A stretch of 64,000 bases of DNA. Origin: a bacterium. Its GTDB lineage: Bacteria; Bacteroidota; Ignavibacteria; SZUA-365. How positions within the stretch are numbered: position 1 is the stretch's first letter; every line of letters begins with the position of its first letter. The DNA lies in contig JAHLLD010000001.1 of assembly GCA_020444325.1 (NCBI GenBank), positions 1 through 64,000 on the forward strand. Reading direction: 5' to 3'. The notes under the pieces are model-generated. The model saw nothing but the letters and a program-made list of their open reading frames with translations, searched no databases and was not told the DNA's origin. Positions 20,688 through 62,772 of this stretch are shown here, piece after piece. The translations under genes were made by a program, and so were the position numbers.

Positions 20688-20935
20688 CGCTCGCGCGGGA
20701 GTGGCTTCGCCACGCTAGAGCGCCTACCGGCGCGCGGGTGTGGCTTCGCCACGCTAGAGCGCCTAACGGCGCGCGGGAGTGGCTTCGCCACGCTAGAGCG
20801 CCTAACGGCGCGCGGGAGTGGCTTCGCCACGCGGGAGCGCCTAACGGCGCGCGGGAGTGGCTTCGCTGCGCTTGAGCCTCGTCCCGCTTCGCCCGGACCT
20901 GGCTCGGGAGCACTGCTTCGCAGTGCGTGACAGAA
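20688..20935. repeat. Hairpin-module array 7 with a 39-bp composite tandem unit
   Basis: From about 20690 to 20875 a 39-bp unit repeats about 4.5 times. Each unit contains two hairpins, GTGGC-TTC-GCCAC and GCGCC-TAAC-GGCGC, separated by GCTAGA or GCGGGA and by GCGGGA. The rest holds GTCCCGCTTCGCCCGGAC- and GCACTGCTTCGCAGTGC-type stems. The same 39-bp unit recurs in array 9. Short Arg/Ala-rich frames through it are repeat artefacts. Confidence 0.9.
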
Positions 20936-25375: not shown

Positions 25376-25743
25376 TCCCGCTAACGCGGCGCGCGGGAGT
25401 GGCTCCGCCACGCTGGAGCGCCTAACGGCGCGCGGGAGTGGCTTCGCCACGCGGGAGCGCCTGACGGCGCGCGGGAGTGGCTCCGCCACGCGGGAGCGCC
25501 TGACGGCGCGCGGGAGTGGCTTCGCCACGCGGGAGCGCCTGACGGCGCGCTTGAGCGCCGCTTACGCGGCGCGAGGGATGAACGGACTCGTCCCGCTTGC
25601 GGGACTCTGGCGCGAGGCCCCGATGCAATCGGGGACGAGCTCAAGCGCCGAATCCTCCCGCGAAGCGGGACAGGATGAGGCTCACGCGCGAGCTTCGCAG
25701 GGCGAAGCGAGCTCACGCGCCGAGTGCAACGAGGCTCACGCGA
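25376..25743. repeat. Hairpin-module array 9
   Basis: The array begins 2 bp after the amidohydrolase stop with about four copies of the 39-bp composite unit of array 7; in two copies the loop reads TCC instead of TTC. It continues with GCCGCTTACGCGGC, GTCCCGCTTGCGGGAC, CCCCGATGCAATCGGGG, CCCGCGAAGCGGG and others, linked by CTCAAGCG and CTCACGCG. It ends at the SRP RNA terminator. Confidence 0.9.
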
Positions 25744-29585: not shown

Positions 29586-30161
29586 TTATGTCCCGGGTAT
29601 GAGTGAAATACGGGCGCGTTCTTTATGTATCGCTCCCCTGGGGGTGAGCGTGCTTTCCATTATATGTACAGCGGAAAAATGCACCGTCGCAGGCTGAAAA
29701 CTACATGCTGCCAGCGCATTTTCCAAACCCCCGGTATCCGCCCCGCGGCGCGCCCTGCCGACGGTAAAATGCGGTGTAAATTTCTTCTTCTCCTGCTCCA
29801 GTCCATGCCGTGCACAGAGCTCCTCCGTCCATCGCTGCAGTCCCATCACCCGCGGCACCGCCTCCGCAAACCCGAGCCACACAATCCTCGGCCTGCGCAG
29901 ATTCGGAAACCCGCCCGTACGATTTATCTCCGCCACAATCTCGCCCTCCCTGCGCACCTCCGCCTCCATCTCCCGCGCAATCGCATCCAGCGTCGCGGAC
30001 TCGACATCCCCGAGGAATTTGAGGGTTATGTGGACTTTATCCGGCTGCTCCCAGCGAATGGAGCGGTCCTCAGATCCCAGACAGCCGATAAAGTCGCTAA
30101 TGTGAGTCAGCGCTTCATAGTCGGGGTAGAGAGCAATGAATGAGCGGATATACTTAGACAT
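29586..30161 (-). CDS. thpR: RNA 2',3'-cyclic phosphodiesterase / 2'-5' RNA ligase-like protein, 191 aa
   Basis: This is a member of the 2H phosphoesterase superfamily. The two HxT/S motifs are HITLKFLG (about residue 45) and HFTVGRA (about 132). FIALYPD and [14 protein letters not shown] also match bacterial LigT/ThpR proteins, which open 2',3'-cyclic phosphate ends of RNA. It ends about 35 bp before recA on the same strand, as often seen in other bacteria, so it may be in the same transcript. Confidence 0.9.
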
Positions 30162-30198: not shown

Positions 30199-30455
30199 GA
30201 ATGTAAGAGGAACGCAGATTATCGCTGATTGGTCGCGGATTATCGCTGGTGTATGAATGTAAGAAGAACGCAGATTATCACTGATTGGTCGCGGATTGTC
30301 GCTGGTGTATGAATGTAAGAGGAACGCGGATTATCGCTGATTGGTCGCGGATTGTCGCTGGTGTATGAATGTAAGAGGAACGCGGATTATCGCTGATTGG
30401 TCGCAGATTGTCGCTGGTGTATGAATGTAAGAGGAACGCGGATTGTCGCTGGTGG
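30199..30455. repeat. 56-bp tandem repeat, four and a half copies (left arm of the GxxExxY element)
   Basis: Copies start at 30199, 30255, 30311, 30367 and 30423. Each unit holds GAGGAACGCGGATTATCGC, TGATTGGTCGCGGATTGTCGC and TGGTGTATGAATGTAA. It is made from the same NCGCAGATT words as the other elements at 30-38 kb but expanded in tandem. It lies directly 3' of the GxxExxY gene, while the inverse orientation of the words lies on its 5' side. There are no spacers, so it is not a CRISPR array. Confidence 0.9.
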
Positions 30456-30458
30456 TGG

Positions 30459-30899
30459 TTAGGATGAGCGTGGGGGGGGATCGGGAAGGAAGTGTTCGCG
30501 GAGGCGCTTTCTTTCGTACTCACGCGTGACGCGATGGATTCCTTTCTGCATGTTGTGCTCATTGAAATTGAGGATGAGTCCGATTTCTCTGTCCGTTAAG
30601 CGGAGATAGGTAAGCAGTTGCGCTCTGTGCATCGGAATGACTCTATCGACGGTTTTGATTTCGACAATGACCTCATTTGCTATGAGCAGATCAAGCCGGT
30701 AGCCGACTTCTAGACGGATTGTTTTGTAAACAAGGGGAATTGGAACCTGCTCCTCAACTTTGAGGCCAGCTTGACGAATTTCCAATGCAAGACAGGCTTC
30801 ATACGCTGATTCGAGCAGACCTGGGCCCAGCGCTGAATGAATCTTGTACGCACAGCCAATAATAGCTGAGGTCAATTCGTTGATCTTCTCCATTTCCAT
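30459..30899 (-). CDS. GxxExxY protein (PD-(D/E)XK nuclease-like), 146 aa
   Basis: The family-naming motif is present as GPGLLESAYEACLALE; nuclease-fold residues follow in YRLDLLIANEVIVEIKTVDRV (D and ExK). GIHRVTREYERK ends the domain. The ATG at 30899 follows GGGAG with 6-nt spacing; a longer frame starts at 30926. These small proteins are widespread, lack a proven function and often occur in repeat-rich gaps. Here the gene is enclosed by CGCAGATT words in direct orientation on one side and inverted on the other, as if carried by the element. Confidence 0.9.
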   Translation of the reverse strand: MEMEKINELTSAIIGCAYKIHSALGPGLLESAYEACLALEIRQAGLKVEEQVPIPLVYKTIRLEVGYRLDLLIANEVIVEIKTVDRVIPMHRAQLLTYLRLTDREIGLILNFNEHNMQKGIHRVTREYERKRLREHFLPDPPPRSS

Positions 30900-31005
30900 C
30901 AGATACTCCCAATACCGATGTCTCAATGTGGAGACACAATTTGCATTTCCACATCATCTCCAACAAGTCATAAAACCCAACCGGATCGGTACATCCCCTA
31001 GATGT

Positions 31006-31225
31006 GCAGCGCAGATTTTACGCGGTTGGAGGAGCTACACAGATTGTCGCAAATAAATACGTAGCTTTTCGCAGGAAAGGCTTTCTTACCACTTACCTGC
31101 GTGAATCTGCGGTCAATCAGCGAAAATCTGTGTTCCTCTTCTCCCCCATTTTACTCCGCGAGAATCTGCGATTAATCCGCGATAATCTGCGTAGCTCTTC
31201 CTCCTGCGCTAAATCTGCGTTCCTC
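31006..31225. repeat. CGCAGATT-word element, right arm beside the GxxExxY gene
   Basis: The first 50 bp carry forward words (GCGCAGATTTTACGCGG, GAGCTACACAGATTGTCGC). After an AT-rich centre the words are inverted (AATCTGCGGTCAATCAGCG, GAGAATCTGCGATTAATCCGCG, ATAATCTGCGTAGCTCTTCC, AAATCTGCGTTCCTCTTC). The outer AATCTGCGTTCCTC is the exact complement of GAGGAACGCAGATT at the other side of the GxxExxY gene. The 30927-31005 stretch holds nothing else. Confidence 0.85.
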
Positions 31226-31254
31226 TTCTCATCTTGCTTTCGTATTTTTACCAC

Positions 31255-31879: not shown

Positions 31880-32108
31880 ATTAAGCGGAACGCAGATTTT
31901 AACGCAGAGAGAAGAGCTACGCAGATTCTCACAGATTAAACGCAGATTTACGCCGGTTTGGCTTGAAGAATTTTTATACCTGCGAAAATTTGCGATAACT
32001 CAGCGAGAATCTGCGTTCATCTTCTTCTCCCCCATTTCACTCAGCGAGAATCTGCGACCAATCAGCGATAATCTGCGTAGCTCTTAAAATCTGCGTAGCT
32101 CCTTTACC
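31880..32108. repeat. CGCAGATT-word inverted-repeat element
   Basis: The element fills the complete gap between two plus-strand genes. The left half reads GGAACGCAGATTTTAACGC and GAGCTACGCAGATTCTCAC; the centre is AT-rich and ends with ACCTGCG; the right half reads GCGAGAATCTGCGTTC, GCGATAATCTGCGTAGCTC and again AATCTGCGTAGCTC. The element therefore also occupies the whole leader of the sua5 gene. Confidence 0.88.
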
Positions 32109-32111
32109 AGT

Positions 32112-33116
32112 ATGAATACTCATCTCCTCCATACCACCCACACAGATATCACCACGGCGGCGCGGTTGCTGCGGGAGGGGGGATTGGTGGCGTTTCCGAC
32201 GGAGACGGTGTATGGACTGGGGGCGAATGCGCTGGATGAACAGGCGGTGCGCAAGGTGTATGAGGTGAAGGGGCGTCCCACGGATAATCCGATGATCGTG
32301 CATGTCAGCAGCGTGCAGCAGGCAAGGGAGCTGATGCAGGTCGAACCGCCGCTGTTTGCGGAGCTGACCAATGAGTTCTGGCCGGGACCGCTGACCCTTA
32401 TCGTCCGGCACAATGCGGCGGTACTGGATGTGGTGACGGCCGCGCTCGATACGGTGGCCCTCCGCATGCCGGATCTCGCGGTCACACGCCGACTGCTCGA
32501 AGCTGCCGGGGTCCCCGTCGCGGCACCTTCGGCCAATCTTTCGGGACGTCCATCCCCCACCACGGCGCAAACGGTGTTCGAGGAATTGAACGGACGCATC
32601 GACGCGGTGCTCGATGGCGGAGATTGTCCCGTCGGCATCGAGAGCACGGTACTCGATCTCACTTCCCCGCAACCGGTCATTCTGCGTCCGGGTACCGTCA
32701 CGCGCGAGGATATCGAAGAGGTGATCCAGGGAAATGTCTATTTCGCGGATGCGCAATCCGGCGCACCTCGTTCACCGGGAACGAAGTACCGTCACTACGC
32801 GCCGCATGCTCCGCTGAAGATCATCCCGTGGGAATCCGATCCCACTGAAATGCAGAATGCCCTGCAACGAAGCATTGCAGGGCATCTTGAAGAGAACGAG
32901 CGCGTGGGACTCCTTGCCCCCTCCTCTTACCGCGACTGCGGTGAACATGTCTTCTTCTCTCTCGGCGACGGCAGCGCTCTCTCTTACGCGCGCCTGCTGT
33001 ATGCCGGACTCCGATCCCTCGACACCGCCAACGTCGACATCATCCTCTGCCCCGCCATCGAAGCCGTGGGAGTGGGGGTGGCAGTGATGAATCGATTGGA
33101 GAAGGCCGCAGATTGA
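32112..33116 (+). CDS. L-threonylcarbamoyladenylate synthase, Sua5 type, 334 aa
   Basis: The enzyme makes threonylcarbamoyl-AMP for the t6A modification of tRNA at position 37. The YrdC domain (residues about 8-200) shows LREGGLVAFPTETVYGLGANA, KVYEVKGRPTDNPMIVHV, FWPGPLTLIV and APSANLSGRPSPTTA; STVLDLT and RPGTVTREDIEEV close it. The extra C-terminal domain (about 235-330) makes it the long Sua5 form. The last two codons and stop (GCAGAT TGA) are part of the CGCAGATT element, suggesting that the original end was overwritten. Confidence 0.93.
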   Translation: MNTHLLHTTHTDITTAARLLREGGLVAFPTETVYGLGANALDEQAVRKVYEVKGRPTDNPMIVHVSSVQQARELMQVEPPLFAELTNEFWPGPLTLIVRHNAAVLDVVTAALDTVALRMPDLAVTRRLLEAAGVPVAAPSANLSGRPSPTTAQTVFEELNGRIDAVLDGGDCPVGIESTVLDLTSPQPVILRPGTVTREDIEEVIQGNVYFADAQSGAPRSPGTKYRHYAPHAPLKIIPWESDPTEMQNALQRSIAGHLEENERVGLLAPSSYRDCGEHVFFSLGDGSALSYARLLYAGLRSLDTANVDIILCPAIEAVGVGVAVMNRLEKAAD

Positions 33117-33262
33117 ACGCAGAGGGAAGAGCTACGCAGATTTTCGCAGATTAATCGCAGATTTTCGCTGAGAGAATTTTGTTAAAATATACCTGCGAGA
33201 ATCTGCGGATTATCCGCGAAAATCTGCGTAGCTCTTCCCTCTGCGTTTCATCTGCGTAATCT
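33105..33262. repeat. CGCAGATT-word inverted-repeat element, best-preserved copy
   Basis: The left arm and the complement of the right arm share the stretch from AACGCAGAGGGAAG through GAGCTACGCAGATTTTCGC, more than 30 identical bases, and stay similar over about 65 bp. The AT-rich centre is TTTTGTTAAAATATA followed by CCTGCG. The element supplies the stop of sua5 on one side (GCAGAT-TGA) and abuts the TAG stop of the TonB receptor on the other. Confidence 0.92.
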
Positions 33263-35574: not shown

Positions 35575-35840
35575 GCAACCACAGATTACACGGATTTAAA
35601 CACAGATTCCTCAGAGGGAATTCCCGGGCGCAGATTGAACGCAGAGGGAAGAGGAACGCAGATTATCGCGGATTACACGCGGATTATCGCTGAGTGAAAT
35701 GGGAAAAAAGAGTAACGCAGATTTTCGCTGAGTTATCGCTGATTTTCGCAGGTATAACAATTCTTCAAGACTAACCGGCGAAAATCTGCGTTTAATCTAT
35801 GAGAATCCGCGTAGCTCTTCCCTCCTGCGTTCAATCTGCG
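35575..35840. repeat. CGCAGATT-word element, longest simple copy
   Basis: It starts with ACAGATTACACGGATTTAAAC, a diverged flank, then GCGCAGATTGAACGCAGAGG, GAGGAACGCAGATTATCGC, GGATTACACGCGGATTATCGC and others forward, an AT-rich centre (ACAATTCTTCAAGAC), then inverted GGCGAAAATCTGCGTTTAATC and GAATCCGCGTAGCTC. It ends inside the next gene's stop region: CTC GCA GAT TGA. Confidence 0.88.
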
Positions 35841-37141: not shown

Positions 37142-37262
37142 AGATTAAGAGCTACGCAGATTTTCGCAGGTGAGGTTGAATACAAATTCATACCGGCGAA
37201 AATCTGCGTTTAATCTGTGAGAATCTGCGTGGCTCTTTCCTCTGCGCTGAATCCGCGAAATC
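37142..37262. repeat. CGCAGATT-word element
   Basis: It fills the whole 121-bp gap between rfbC and the GT-C-like gene: TTAAGAGCTACGCAGATTTT forward, the AT-rich centre GAATACAAATTCATAC, then GGCGAAAATCTGCGTTTAATC and GAGAATCTGCGTGGCTC inverted. It abuts the TAA stop of rfbC. Confidence 0.88.
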
Positions 37263-37814: not shown

Positions 37815-37975
37815 CAACTGAAGAGGAACGCAGATTCTCGCTGATTTTCCGCAGATTCTCGCAGGTAAAAATTATAAAATCCTTCCCTGCGATAATCTGC
37901 GTTTAATTTGCGATAATCTGCGTAGCTCTTACTCCTGCGTTAAATCTGCGTAGCTCTTACTCCTGCGTAATCTAT
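37815..37975. repeat. CGCAGATT-word element with a duplicated edge
   Basis: It fills the gap between ugd and rfbC. The centre is GCAGGTAAAAATTATAAAAT, with CCCTGCG on the right side. The right edge TAAATCTGCGTAGCTCTTAC (with TCCTGCG) occurs twice in tandem, a fresh-looking duplication. ATTACGCAG at the edge follows the TAG stop of ugd directly. Confidence 0.9.
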
Positions 37976-39369: not shown

Positions 39370-40809
39370 TCATGCGGCGTCTGAATCAGCAGCGCGATCT
39401 CCGTCGTTGGACTTCTTCTTTTCTTTCCCGCTGGAAGTGCCATTACCGTTCTTGTGATGACCGTTCCCGTTTTTTCCATTGGCATGGAAACCATTCCCAT
39501 TCGTATGCAGTCCATTTCCGTTGGAATGCACTCCGTTGCCGTTGCCGTTGCCGTTGACATGGATGCCATTGCCGTTCACATGCACGCCATTCCCGTTGAC
39601 GTGAATCCCGTTGCCGTTCACGTGCACGCCATTCCCGTTGGCATGAATGCCGTTCGATTTCCCGTTCCCGTTGCGGACGAGGACATCATGCGCGAGGGCT
39701 TCGAAATTGGGGATGTGACGGCGCGCGCGTCTGCGAGCCGCGAGCGAGGGCAGCACGAGTTCGGTGTAACCAAGCTTGTGAAGGAAGGCGGCCTTGCCGG
39801 CGATGAGAACACCGATGAGTATCCATCCCCCGGTGGGAGGAAGCATGGCCACCGCGATACCGGCGATGCCGTAGAGGGAGGACAGCAGAGCGAGCACACC
39901 GACCGAGCGACTGAGCGAGAGGTTGAAGCGCTCTTTCACCATGTGGTGGATGTGCAGCAGGTCGGCCGAGAAGGGGTTGGACCCGCGCATGATGCGCCGG
40001 AAAAATGCCAGCAGTGTGTCGGAAACCGGGAGTCCCAGAATGATGATGGGGACGAGGATGGAAATGAAATCGTCGGGTCCCGCGTCGACGATCATCCAGC
40101 CGCTGAAGGCGAGGACGAAGCCGATGAACATCGATCCCCCATCACCCATGAAGATGCGCGCGGGATGCGTGTTGAAGGTCAGGAAGCCCAGGATAGCGCC
40201 ACTCAGCGTAAGCAGCATGAGTCCGATCACCGGATTGCCCCACAGAAAAGCCACCACCGCCAGCGCAATGGCGGAAATCAGCGAGGTCGCGCCCGCGAGT
40301 CCATCCATCCCGTCAATCATGTTGATGGCGTTGGTCGTCCCGACCAGCCACAGCAGAGACACCACCATGCCGATGGAATTCACCAGCACGCCGGAATTCT
40401 CAATACTGAACACTGAAGGGAAAAGGTTCGATTTCGTGGCCCCGAGAATCATCAGGAAGGCCGCGATGAACTGGAAGAAGAACTTCTGCGAATACGTCAG
40501 CTCGCGCAGATCGTCGATGACGCCGAGGACGACAATGATCAGCGTTGCTTCCGCGATGTACAGGTACATCGGCACGAAGTTCGCGTACTCGGCTGCGAAA
40601 AAACCCACGCCCTCGATTGCGAGCATCACCCCCATCGCCACGGTGAACGCCGCGATGATCCCGTACCCACCGGTAAACGGCACGCTTTCCGCGTGCATTT
40701 TCCGCTGTTCGTCGGGACGATCCAGCAATCCGTACCGCCGGGCGAGACGTATGCACAATGGCATCGCCGTCACGGCAAGCAGCAGGGCGAGTATGGGATA
40801 TAGCATCAT
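39370..40809 (-). CDS. WecA/TagO-type polyprenyl-phosphate sugar-1-phosphate transferase with Asn-Gly-His repeat tail, 479 aa
   Basis: An integral membrane enzyme starting polysaccharide synthesis by moving a HexNAc-1-phosphate to undecaprenyl phosphate. The MraY/WecA motifs are VLGVIDDLRELTYSQK, NMIDGMDGLAGATS, FMGDGGSMFIGF and LLHIHHMVKERF. The Met pair at 40809/40806 begins the first membrane helix; an upstream Met at 40890 would add 27 poorly related residues. The last 100 residues are most odd: repeated NGNGxHxNGNG units with about a dozen His, then a KEKKKSNDGD tail, facing the cytoplasm if the family topology holds. Confidence 0.88.
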   Translation of the reverse strand: MMLYPILALLLAVTAMPLCIRLARRYGLLDRPDEQRKMHAESVPFTGGYGIIAAFTVAMGVMLAIEGVGFFAAEYANFVPMYLYIAEATLIIVVLGVIDDLRELTYSQKFFFQFIAAFLMILGATKSNLFPSVFSIENSGVLVNSIGMVVSLLWLVGTTNAINMIDGMDGLAGATSLISAIALAVVAFLWGNPVIGLMLLTLSGAILGFLTFNTHPARIFMGDGGSMFIGFVLAFSGWMIVDAGPDDFISILVPIIILGLPVSDTLLAFFRRIMRGSNPFSADLLHIHHMVKERFNLSLSRSVGVLALLSSLYGIAGIAVAMLPPTGGWILIGVLIAGKAAFLHKLGYTELVLPSLAARRRARRHIPNFEALAHDVLVRNGNGKSNGIHANGNGVHVNGNGIHVNGNGVHVNGNGIHVNGNGNGNGVHSNGNGLHTNGNGFHANGKNGNGHHKNGNGTSSGKEKKKSNDGDRAADSDAA

Positions 40810-60543: not shown

Positions 60544-61570
60544 AGTAGAAATCGTACACGCGTTTTATACCCTCCTCCAGCGAAATAGCTGGCGCCCATC
60601 CCAGGTTCTTCAACCGACTCACATCCATGAGCTTTCGCGGTGTGCCATCCGGATACTCATCGTTGAAACGAATCTCCCCTTCAAATCCCACGATATCCTT
60701 CACCAGCTCAGCCAGCTCACGAATGGAAATATCCTCTCCAGTCCCGACATTCAAATGCTGTTCACCATTGTAATTCTGCATCATATACACCAACGCCGAC
60801 GCACAATCATCCACATGCAGAAACTCCCTCCTCGGCGCCCCCGTCCCCCACACCTCAACGGAATCCGCTGTCACACCGAAAGAAGCCAATAATCTTTCCA
60901 GATCTTCGTCCGAAGCGCCCTCCACCTCCCTCCGCGTAGATCCGCATTCCAAATCCGTGCGAATCCGTGTTCCCCCTCCCTGCTGCAGCAGCTTTGCCAA
61001 GTGAAATTTGCGAATAAGTGCCGGCAGCACATGACTATTCTTCAAATCGAAGTTGTCATTCATCCCGTACATATTCGTCGGCATGGCGGAGATGAAGTCA
61101 TCCCCATACTGACGCTTGTACGACTCGCACATCTTGAGTCCCGCAATCTTCGCGATCGCGTACGGCTCATTCGTCGGTTCCAGCTCACCGGTAAGCAGAT
61201 GTTCTTCCTGCATGGGCTGAGGGGCGTGCTTCGGGTAAATGCAGGACGAGCCCAGGAAAAGCAGCTTCTTTACACCGTGCTCATGCGCTGTGTGAATGAC
61301 GTTATTCTGTATTGCCAGGTTCTGGTAAATGAACTCGCCGCGATACACGTTGTTCGCGTAAATGCCACCCACACGGGCGGCGGCCAGGAAGACATAGTAT
61401 GGTTTTTCCTCATCGAAGAATTTCTGCACGGCGGACTGCTTCGTCAAATCGAGTTCATCAATGGATTTCCCGACAAGGTTGGAAAATCCATCCAATTCCA
61501 GCTTCCGCCAGATGGCAGAACCAACCATGCCGGTGTGTCCGGCAACGTAAATTTTTGCGTTTTTGTCCAT
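60524..61570 (-). CDS. fcl: GDP-L-fucose synthase, 348 aa
   Basis: Converts GDP-4-keto-6-deoxymannose to GDP-L-fucose. Extended [52 protein letters not shown] (YxxxK), [12 protein letters not shown] and [16 protein letters not shown]. It is longer than the about 315-residue enzymes because of the segment 197-232; long forms with an extra loop here are known in Bacteroidota. Within this loop the DNA at 60905-60979 reads like intergenic repeat (ACACGGATTCGCACGGATTT). Paired with gmd, 7 bp away. Confidence 0.95.
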
Positions 61571-62654: not shown

Positions 62655-62772
62655 GAACTGAAGAGCAACGCAGATTTTCGCGGGTTCACCGCAGAGAACG
62701 CAGATGAAAAATGTAAAAGCCTGATCAGCGAAAATCTGCGTAAAATCTGTGACAATCTGCGTTCCTCTTTTC
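62655..62772. repeat. CGCAGATT-word element outside the main cluster
   Basis: GAAGAGCAACGCAGATTTTCG and CACCGCAGAGAACGCAG forward, centre GAAAAATGTAAAAGCCTGAT, then CAGCGAAAATCTGCG and GACAATCTGCGTTCCTCTTTT inverted. It fills nearly the whole gap between gmd and the barrel gene and touches the TAA stop of the latter. Confidence 0.88.

Follow-up and report, generated by a model that had tools for sequence, protein, structure and literature searches.

GxxExxY genes and dispersed word arrays as probable halves of a nuclease/array system resembling REPIN-RAYT

RAYTs are vertically inherited, single-copy genes that have not been observed on plasmids, and REPINs are commoner where a RAYT gene is present (PMC8049555). 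The locus described here resembles that pair in its organisation: a chromosomal, mainly vertically inherited gene of nuclease type lies between inverted repeat units, dozens of short intergenic derivatives lack the gene and are commoner in genomes that carry it, and the type of repeat tracks the protein. The parts differ, however. Whereas the REPIN-RAYT enzyme is an HUH Y1 tyrosine enzyme, GxxExxY (PF13366) is of the PD-(D/E)XK type, and unlike the REP, a hairpin of 20-40 nt, its arms are composed of four direct words per 46 nt, with no arm pairing maintained at the spacers. Neither the class of enzyme nor the anatomy of the DNA is related, so the GxxExxY system is not a REPIN-RAYT member; we rate its components as categorically new and its logic as working like this known kind. 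Our main reading, to which we assign a probability of roughly 0.6, is that GxxExxY genes and word arrays are the two halves of one nuclease/array system, REPIN-RAYT-like but made of unrelated parts.

Cas4, lambda exonuclease and the RecB-type nucleases share with GxxExxY the predicted fold and an active-site set that includes QxxxY, but GxxExxY has just ~155 aa and is tied to dispersed word arrays, and no CRISPR or recombination operon was seen among the neighbours read around the window gene and in its congeners (recA, thpR, ORF214 and Sua5). TnsA of Tn7 is a PD-(D/E)XK enzyme that works on mobile-element ends, together with its DDE partner TnsB and others; in contrast to TnsA, which needs these, no partner transposase lies between the GxxExxY arms. 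MITEs are likewise short gene-less inverted-repeat elements with the ends of a gene-bearing form, although here no convincing target duplication was found, the enzyme is not DDE and the gene-bearing form appears locus-stable. The 23S rRNA intervening sequences with their S23/four-helix-bundle protein also have inverted repeats around a small gene, but the GxxExxY protein is unrelated and the S23 words differ, with a period of 7-8. No functional description of GxxExxY/PF13366 was found in the open-access literature searched; one passage there names the family just as a reverse transcriptase neighbour, and no relevant paper was found there for the word sequences.

Genes of TIGR02436, a 23S-rRNA-IVP-like four-helix-bundle family unrelated to GxxExxY, were observed in the window's phylum to be enclosed by inverted word arrays (L114-L143). 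Fifteen of 30 such loci score above 30 (control 99th percentile 23), and their flank words, of period 7-8, include TTAGCTG, CTAAGAT, AAGTATC and TACTGGC. The gene is present in 114 of 148 genomes, and its family may possess a parallel version of the nuclease/array system. No association of the four-helix-bundle gene with CRCNRAG arrays was found, and genomes that have it without GxxExxY contain almost no such arrays.

The window, by which we mean the whole 64,000-nucleotide stretch analysed, contains an intact GxxExxY gene at 30459-30926 on the minus strand. It encodes a 155-aa protein with the family motif G36xxE39xxY42, scoring 142.5 bits against TIGR04256 (cut-off 35) and 139.5 bits against PF13366 (cut-off 22) in profile searches. 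The active-site set is E39, D79, E89, K91, Q103 and Y107 (E / D / ExK / QxxxY); E39, D79 and Q103 are found in 201/201 proteins, while E89, Y107 and K91 are each found in 200/201, the exception at K91 being an unreadable residue. Sequence search yielded no solved structural relative. An AlphaFold2 model (pLDDT 88.5) was matched by Foldseek to Cas4 SSO0001 with E 4.6e-4, the nearest structure at a VIA Z of 9.2; LHK-Exo and lambda exonuclease are among the best Foldseek matches, and VIA Z stays below 8 for restriction enzymes and Hjc. As TM-scores are just 0.4-0.5, assignment to the Cas4/lambda-exo branch is moderate. GxxExxY is hence predicted to be a small PD-(D/E)XK nuclease with a Cas4/lambda-exonuclease-like fold, in keeping with the PD-(D/E)XK fold proposed in the first-pass annotation. 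A known defence gene was considered and rejected, PADLOC giving just weak Cas4 profile matches (best E 1e-4) and candidate-system matches.

That annotation had also placed forward words, expanded to a 56-bp tandem, on the 3' side of the gene and inverted words on its 5' side. The 3' part is as described: 30199-30451 (+) comprises 4.5 copies of the 56-bp tandem with CGCAGATT-type words, each unit consisting of a 46-nt arm with four words and a further 10 nt (arms 30205-30250, 30261-30306, 30317-30362 and 30373-30418, partial arm 30429-30451, all +). On the 5' side the array at 31000-31230 (minus; arms 31095-31140 and 31154-31199, outer half-arm 31205-31227) also has forward words at 31010 and 31038, which brings it nearer to a full palindrome than to inverted words alone. 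The outer edges, 30205-30220 and 31212-31227, are indeed exact complements (16 nt, 100%). The window has 40 occurrences of CGCAGATT where 3.5 (sd 1.9) are expected, 11-fold over chance, with lone words at 29896 (inside thpR), 51044 and 54565 falling within chance. Pattern searches, the source of all genome-wide word counts, gave 75 occurrences of CGCAGATTNNCGC in the 4.65-Mb genome and 0 of the reversed pattern.

Gene-less elements lie at 31888-32100 (arms 31912-31957, +, 31978-32023, -, and 32040-32085, -), 33127-33236 (110 bp), 35649-35819 (arms 35649-35694, +, 35708-35753, +, and 35774-35819, -), 37155-37237 (a single full arm at 37192-37237, -, with a facing word at 37155, +), 37821-37930 (110 bp; arms 37821-37866, +, and 37885-37930, -) and 62661-62769 (left arm 62661-62706, +, degraded; right arm 62724-62769, -). 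The genome has just three GxxExxY genes, in the window, at C10:110903 and at C3:102654, all TIR-bounded and each with a different word family; since two of them use other words, the remaining CGCAGATT elements are without this gene, as had been supposed. The C10:110903 gene has CACAAAG/CACGAAG words in 33-nt arms (94% complementary) and the C3:102654 gene CACGGATC words in 52-nt arms (81% complementary). Both the CACGAAG and the CACGGATC family are present gene-less elsewhere in the genome, the former resting on a few clusters of a short pattern with high background; a gene-less word array at 60953-60969 (minus) of the window belongs to the CACGGATC/T family, whose words flank the C3:102654 gene.

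Across 18 CGCAGATT elements (46-nt arms, span 108-112 bp), 33 columns show 94% conservation. At the ten variable columns arms of the same element match at 0.378 and arms of different elements at 0.377; there is no excess of arm-arm pairing at these positions, which indicates that pairing is not maintained. This rules out hairpin or cruciform selection for the CGCAGATT family and disfavours the earlier proposal of an enzyme acting on palindromes. Judged from their sequences, the arms look like protein-recognition arrays rather than selected hairpins. The loops are homologous among the copies of each genome, with an identity of 0.495 in the window genome (G000; 0.414, sd 0.006, shuffled) and 0.571 in its congener G298 (0.384, sd 0.008, shuffled), supporting within-genome copying. 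No convincing target-site duplication was found among 27 elements, for which the mean anchored repeat is 0.96 versus 0.60 (sd 0.23) shuffled, with no fixed length. Recent movement is not visible in G000 because the variable positions of its copies are saturated.

Some elements (L145, L157 and 33115-33250 of the window) have a second inverted repeat around them, such as AACGCAGAGGG...CCCTCTGCGTT, as if newer ones replace older at the same spot. In G298 the outer ends of elements are tandemly duplicated (GGCAACCACAGGAAA...; L302, L307, L308, L315 and L260) and resemble the 56-bp tandem of the window, which suggests that elements gain or lose sequence stepwise at their ends. Two 39-bp tandem arrays of the window, at 20692-20877 and 25387-25550, have the core GCGGGAGTGGCTnCGCCACGC in common and appear to form a further palindromic repeat family; other tandem repeats lie at 1-74, 1919-2001 and 39491-39654, with periods of 19, 22 and 21/42 bp.

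The generality of inverted word flanks was assessed in two sets: 110 loci of the same phylum and, from other bacteria, the 80 loci that best match the window's family. Word patterns were set after inspecting loci; independent of them is a model-free test in which the left flank is aligned to the reverse complement of the right, and in which 62 of 102 loci score above the 99th percentile of 213 fake genes placed on the same contigs as controls. At least two inward words on both sides are present at 72% of 183 loci and 2.8% of controls, while ~28% of loci are without detectable words on both sides yet retain the catalytic residues, which counts against the main reading; these fractions may not extend to the whole family because the other-phyla loci are best matches to this branch of it. 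Positive loci come from at least 10 named phyla. Words vary from locus to locus around the common form C-R-C-N-R-A-x within one architecture, which rules out a single shared repeat type. Four-word arms are spaced a-b-a, most commonly 10-11-10 (n=89 arms, 68 loci), the outer gaps being equal in 77/89 and the middle gap longest in 82/89; just 2 word runs are longer than four. A 10-11-10 spacing puts one word on each helical turn, and words on one helical face suggest that a protein reads them.

In place of the one repeat type of the first-pass annotation, word families co-vary with protein clades. On a tree of 191 protein rows the word suffix (GAG, AAG or GAT) changes 24 times, compared with 57.5 (sd 3.1) when shuffled, 43.5 (sd 2.9) for shuffles confined to genera and 36.5 (sd 2.5) for swaps confined to genomes; 0/1000 shuffles reached 24 in each of the three schemes. 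CAC/CGC changes number 22 versus 47.0 (sd 3.2) shuffled. The columns most tied to word type, by an association that ignores phylogeny, are 19-20, 101 and 124-131, and these residues are only a lead as candidate specificity residues. A gene and a TIR that merely travel together would be expected to co-vary as well.

GxxExxY was found in 152 of 296 sampled genomes of the phylum. At least 10 triple-word arrays are present in 60 of the 152 gene-positive genomes and in 1 of the 144 gene-negative genomes (odds ratio 93, p=2.5e-19), with means of 18.3 and 0.58 arrays; for the reversed pattern the means are 0.64 and 0.11, respectively. The difference persists within four well-sampled families (19.2 versus 0.67 arrays, family-stratified p=5e-5). 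Gene presence thus predicts the repeats, as anticipated; a lack of such association in other genomes would have refuted the first-pass proposal, which withstood this check. The comparison with REP sequences and their RAYT fits well in that gene-less derivatives go with the gene. Furthermore, at 18 array-bearing loci of other bacteria the likeness of nearby arrays to the locus's own words is 0.55 versus 0.34 (sd 0.08) permuted, a value reached by 12 of 2000 permutations. The expectation that gene flanks match the repeats of their own genome was borne out at these loci, in the three-gene genome and in G298.

G298 carries ~17 copies with CACAGAATnC words and the ends AAAGGCAACC...GGTTGCCTTT, and its sole GxxExxY gene has a complete element copy on each side. 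The word pattern of G298 gives 25 exact matches in G298 and 1 in G000, that of G000 about 42 in G000 and 0 in G298. By flanking sequence, 6/8 comparable slots are occupied in both genomes, with different word families (two of the six shared slots came from the G000 side); the chance of such sharing is estimated at ~1e-11 with p=35/3900, both numbers being rough assumptions. In G298 the slot orthologous to 31888-32100 has a CACAGAATnC element; CACAGAATnC words also occupy the G298 slot orthologous to 33127-33236, which in G297 has CACAAAGG words instead. Further word families occupy the same slots in G297 and G296, the outer ends in G297 being as in G298 and the inner words different. Gene-less elements start near a stop codon at most sites read. 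At the slots compared, a clean recent insertion whose junction could be resolved was not found; G307, G312 and G296 have short element-free intergenics, too diverged for junction placement. One slot that is gene-less in G000 (L153) contains a GxxExxY gene in G306:C209, G301:C46 and G304:C191 (L280-L282); inverted arrays are not clear there, and the element may have lost its arms.

The gene locus itself appears stable. The recA-thpR-GxxExxY-ORF214/Sua5 order is kept in 5/5 congeners, where two protein lineages occupy the recA-thpR locus, one in G000, G296 and G299 (GATT words) and one in G297 and G298. The other two G000 genes have conserved loci in relatives with word type unchanged, beside adenine deaminase in several and between methyltransferase/ArfB-like genes in G297. 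Throughout a genus or family, each gene lineage usually keeps to a single chromosomal locus. GxxExxY was found in 8/72,556 plasmids and 0/50,697 phages, numbers that rule out plasmid or phage cargo.

The gene between its arms had been taken for an autonomous element. A corresponding transposon family, with GxxExxY as stand-alone transposase, the four-word arms as TIRs and the gene-less elements as MITEs moved by cut-and-paste or copy-paste, would account for the TIR-gene-TIR anatomy, for loops that are homologous among gene-less copies and for the presence of distinct gene lineages at one locus in sister species. Classical transposition is nonetheless weakened because gene lineages stay at conserved loci, were found on few plasmids and on no phages, and show no convincing target duplication. 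Genomes moreover hold at most about a dozen GxxExxY genes, and a lone PD-(D/E)XK transposase would, to our knowledge, be unprecedented. The autonomous element is therefore unproven, and we regard a transposon family as a serious but unlikely explanation.

Considerably less probable, in our estimate, is that the arrays are terminators or chromosome organisers of the host, bound by another protein, with the nuclease gene a passenger trapped between them. Elements directly after stop codons, slots conserved between species and genes between two complete palindromes (the window and L283) would suit such a repeat, but word type tracks nuclease clade even within single genomes, and genomes without the gene have almost no arrays, a contrast that persists within families. 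We give scarcely more than marginal credence to arrays as operators through which GxxExxY regulates itself and many genes: they are as regular as protein sites and adjoin genes, yet in the slots examined they follow stop codons rather than occupy promoters, and a pure repressor has no need of near-invariant catalytic residues. Short, degenerate words could in principle be a chance or low-complexity artefact; this is refuted by the same-contig, reversed-pattern and outward-orientation controls, all of which are near background.

In the nuclease/array system that we favour, GxxExxY would recognise the arms as four direct repeats of ~7-8-nt words (C-R-C-N-R-A-x) on one helix face. Two arms would face each other, either around the nuclease's own gene or around a ~20-nt loop, the latter giving a gene-less element of ~105-112 bp. 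Like RAYT, the gene would stay at a fixed locus and be retained chiefly through descent, and its product would maintain and multiply the gene-less elements in trans. Most likely, a cut at an arm or an older element in an intergenic slot would lead to repair that copies another element in. Nuclease-driven copying may in this way homogenise the words of each genome, and a new nuclease lineage would overwrite old slots, which would explain the different word families at the same slots in sister species. We infer binding of the protein to the words, cutting, and copying via break repair instead of classical transposition. A similar picture would result from ordinary gene conversion by RecA with no nuclease involved.

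A more far-reaching proposal, for which we judge the odds to fall a little short of even, is that this is a new class spanning at least 10 phyla, in which a solo Cas4-like nuclease reads four-word arms and, via nuclease-induced repair, has gene-less arrays copied into conserved intergenic slots, resulting in concerted evolution of nuclease specificity and the dozens of dispersed arrays. GxxExxY is a very common family of 'function unknown', and word repeats are scattered through environmental genomes. A common explanation for both would provide the family with a definite DNA substrate and with natural specificity variants in the form of the word types. If the nuclease does read the words, REPIN-RAYT would have a counterpart that evolved independently, and this system might serve as a source of small nucleases with sequence specificity.
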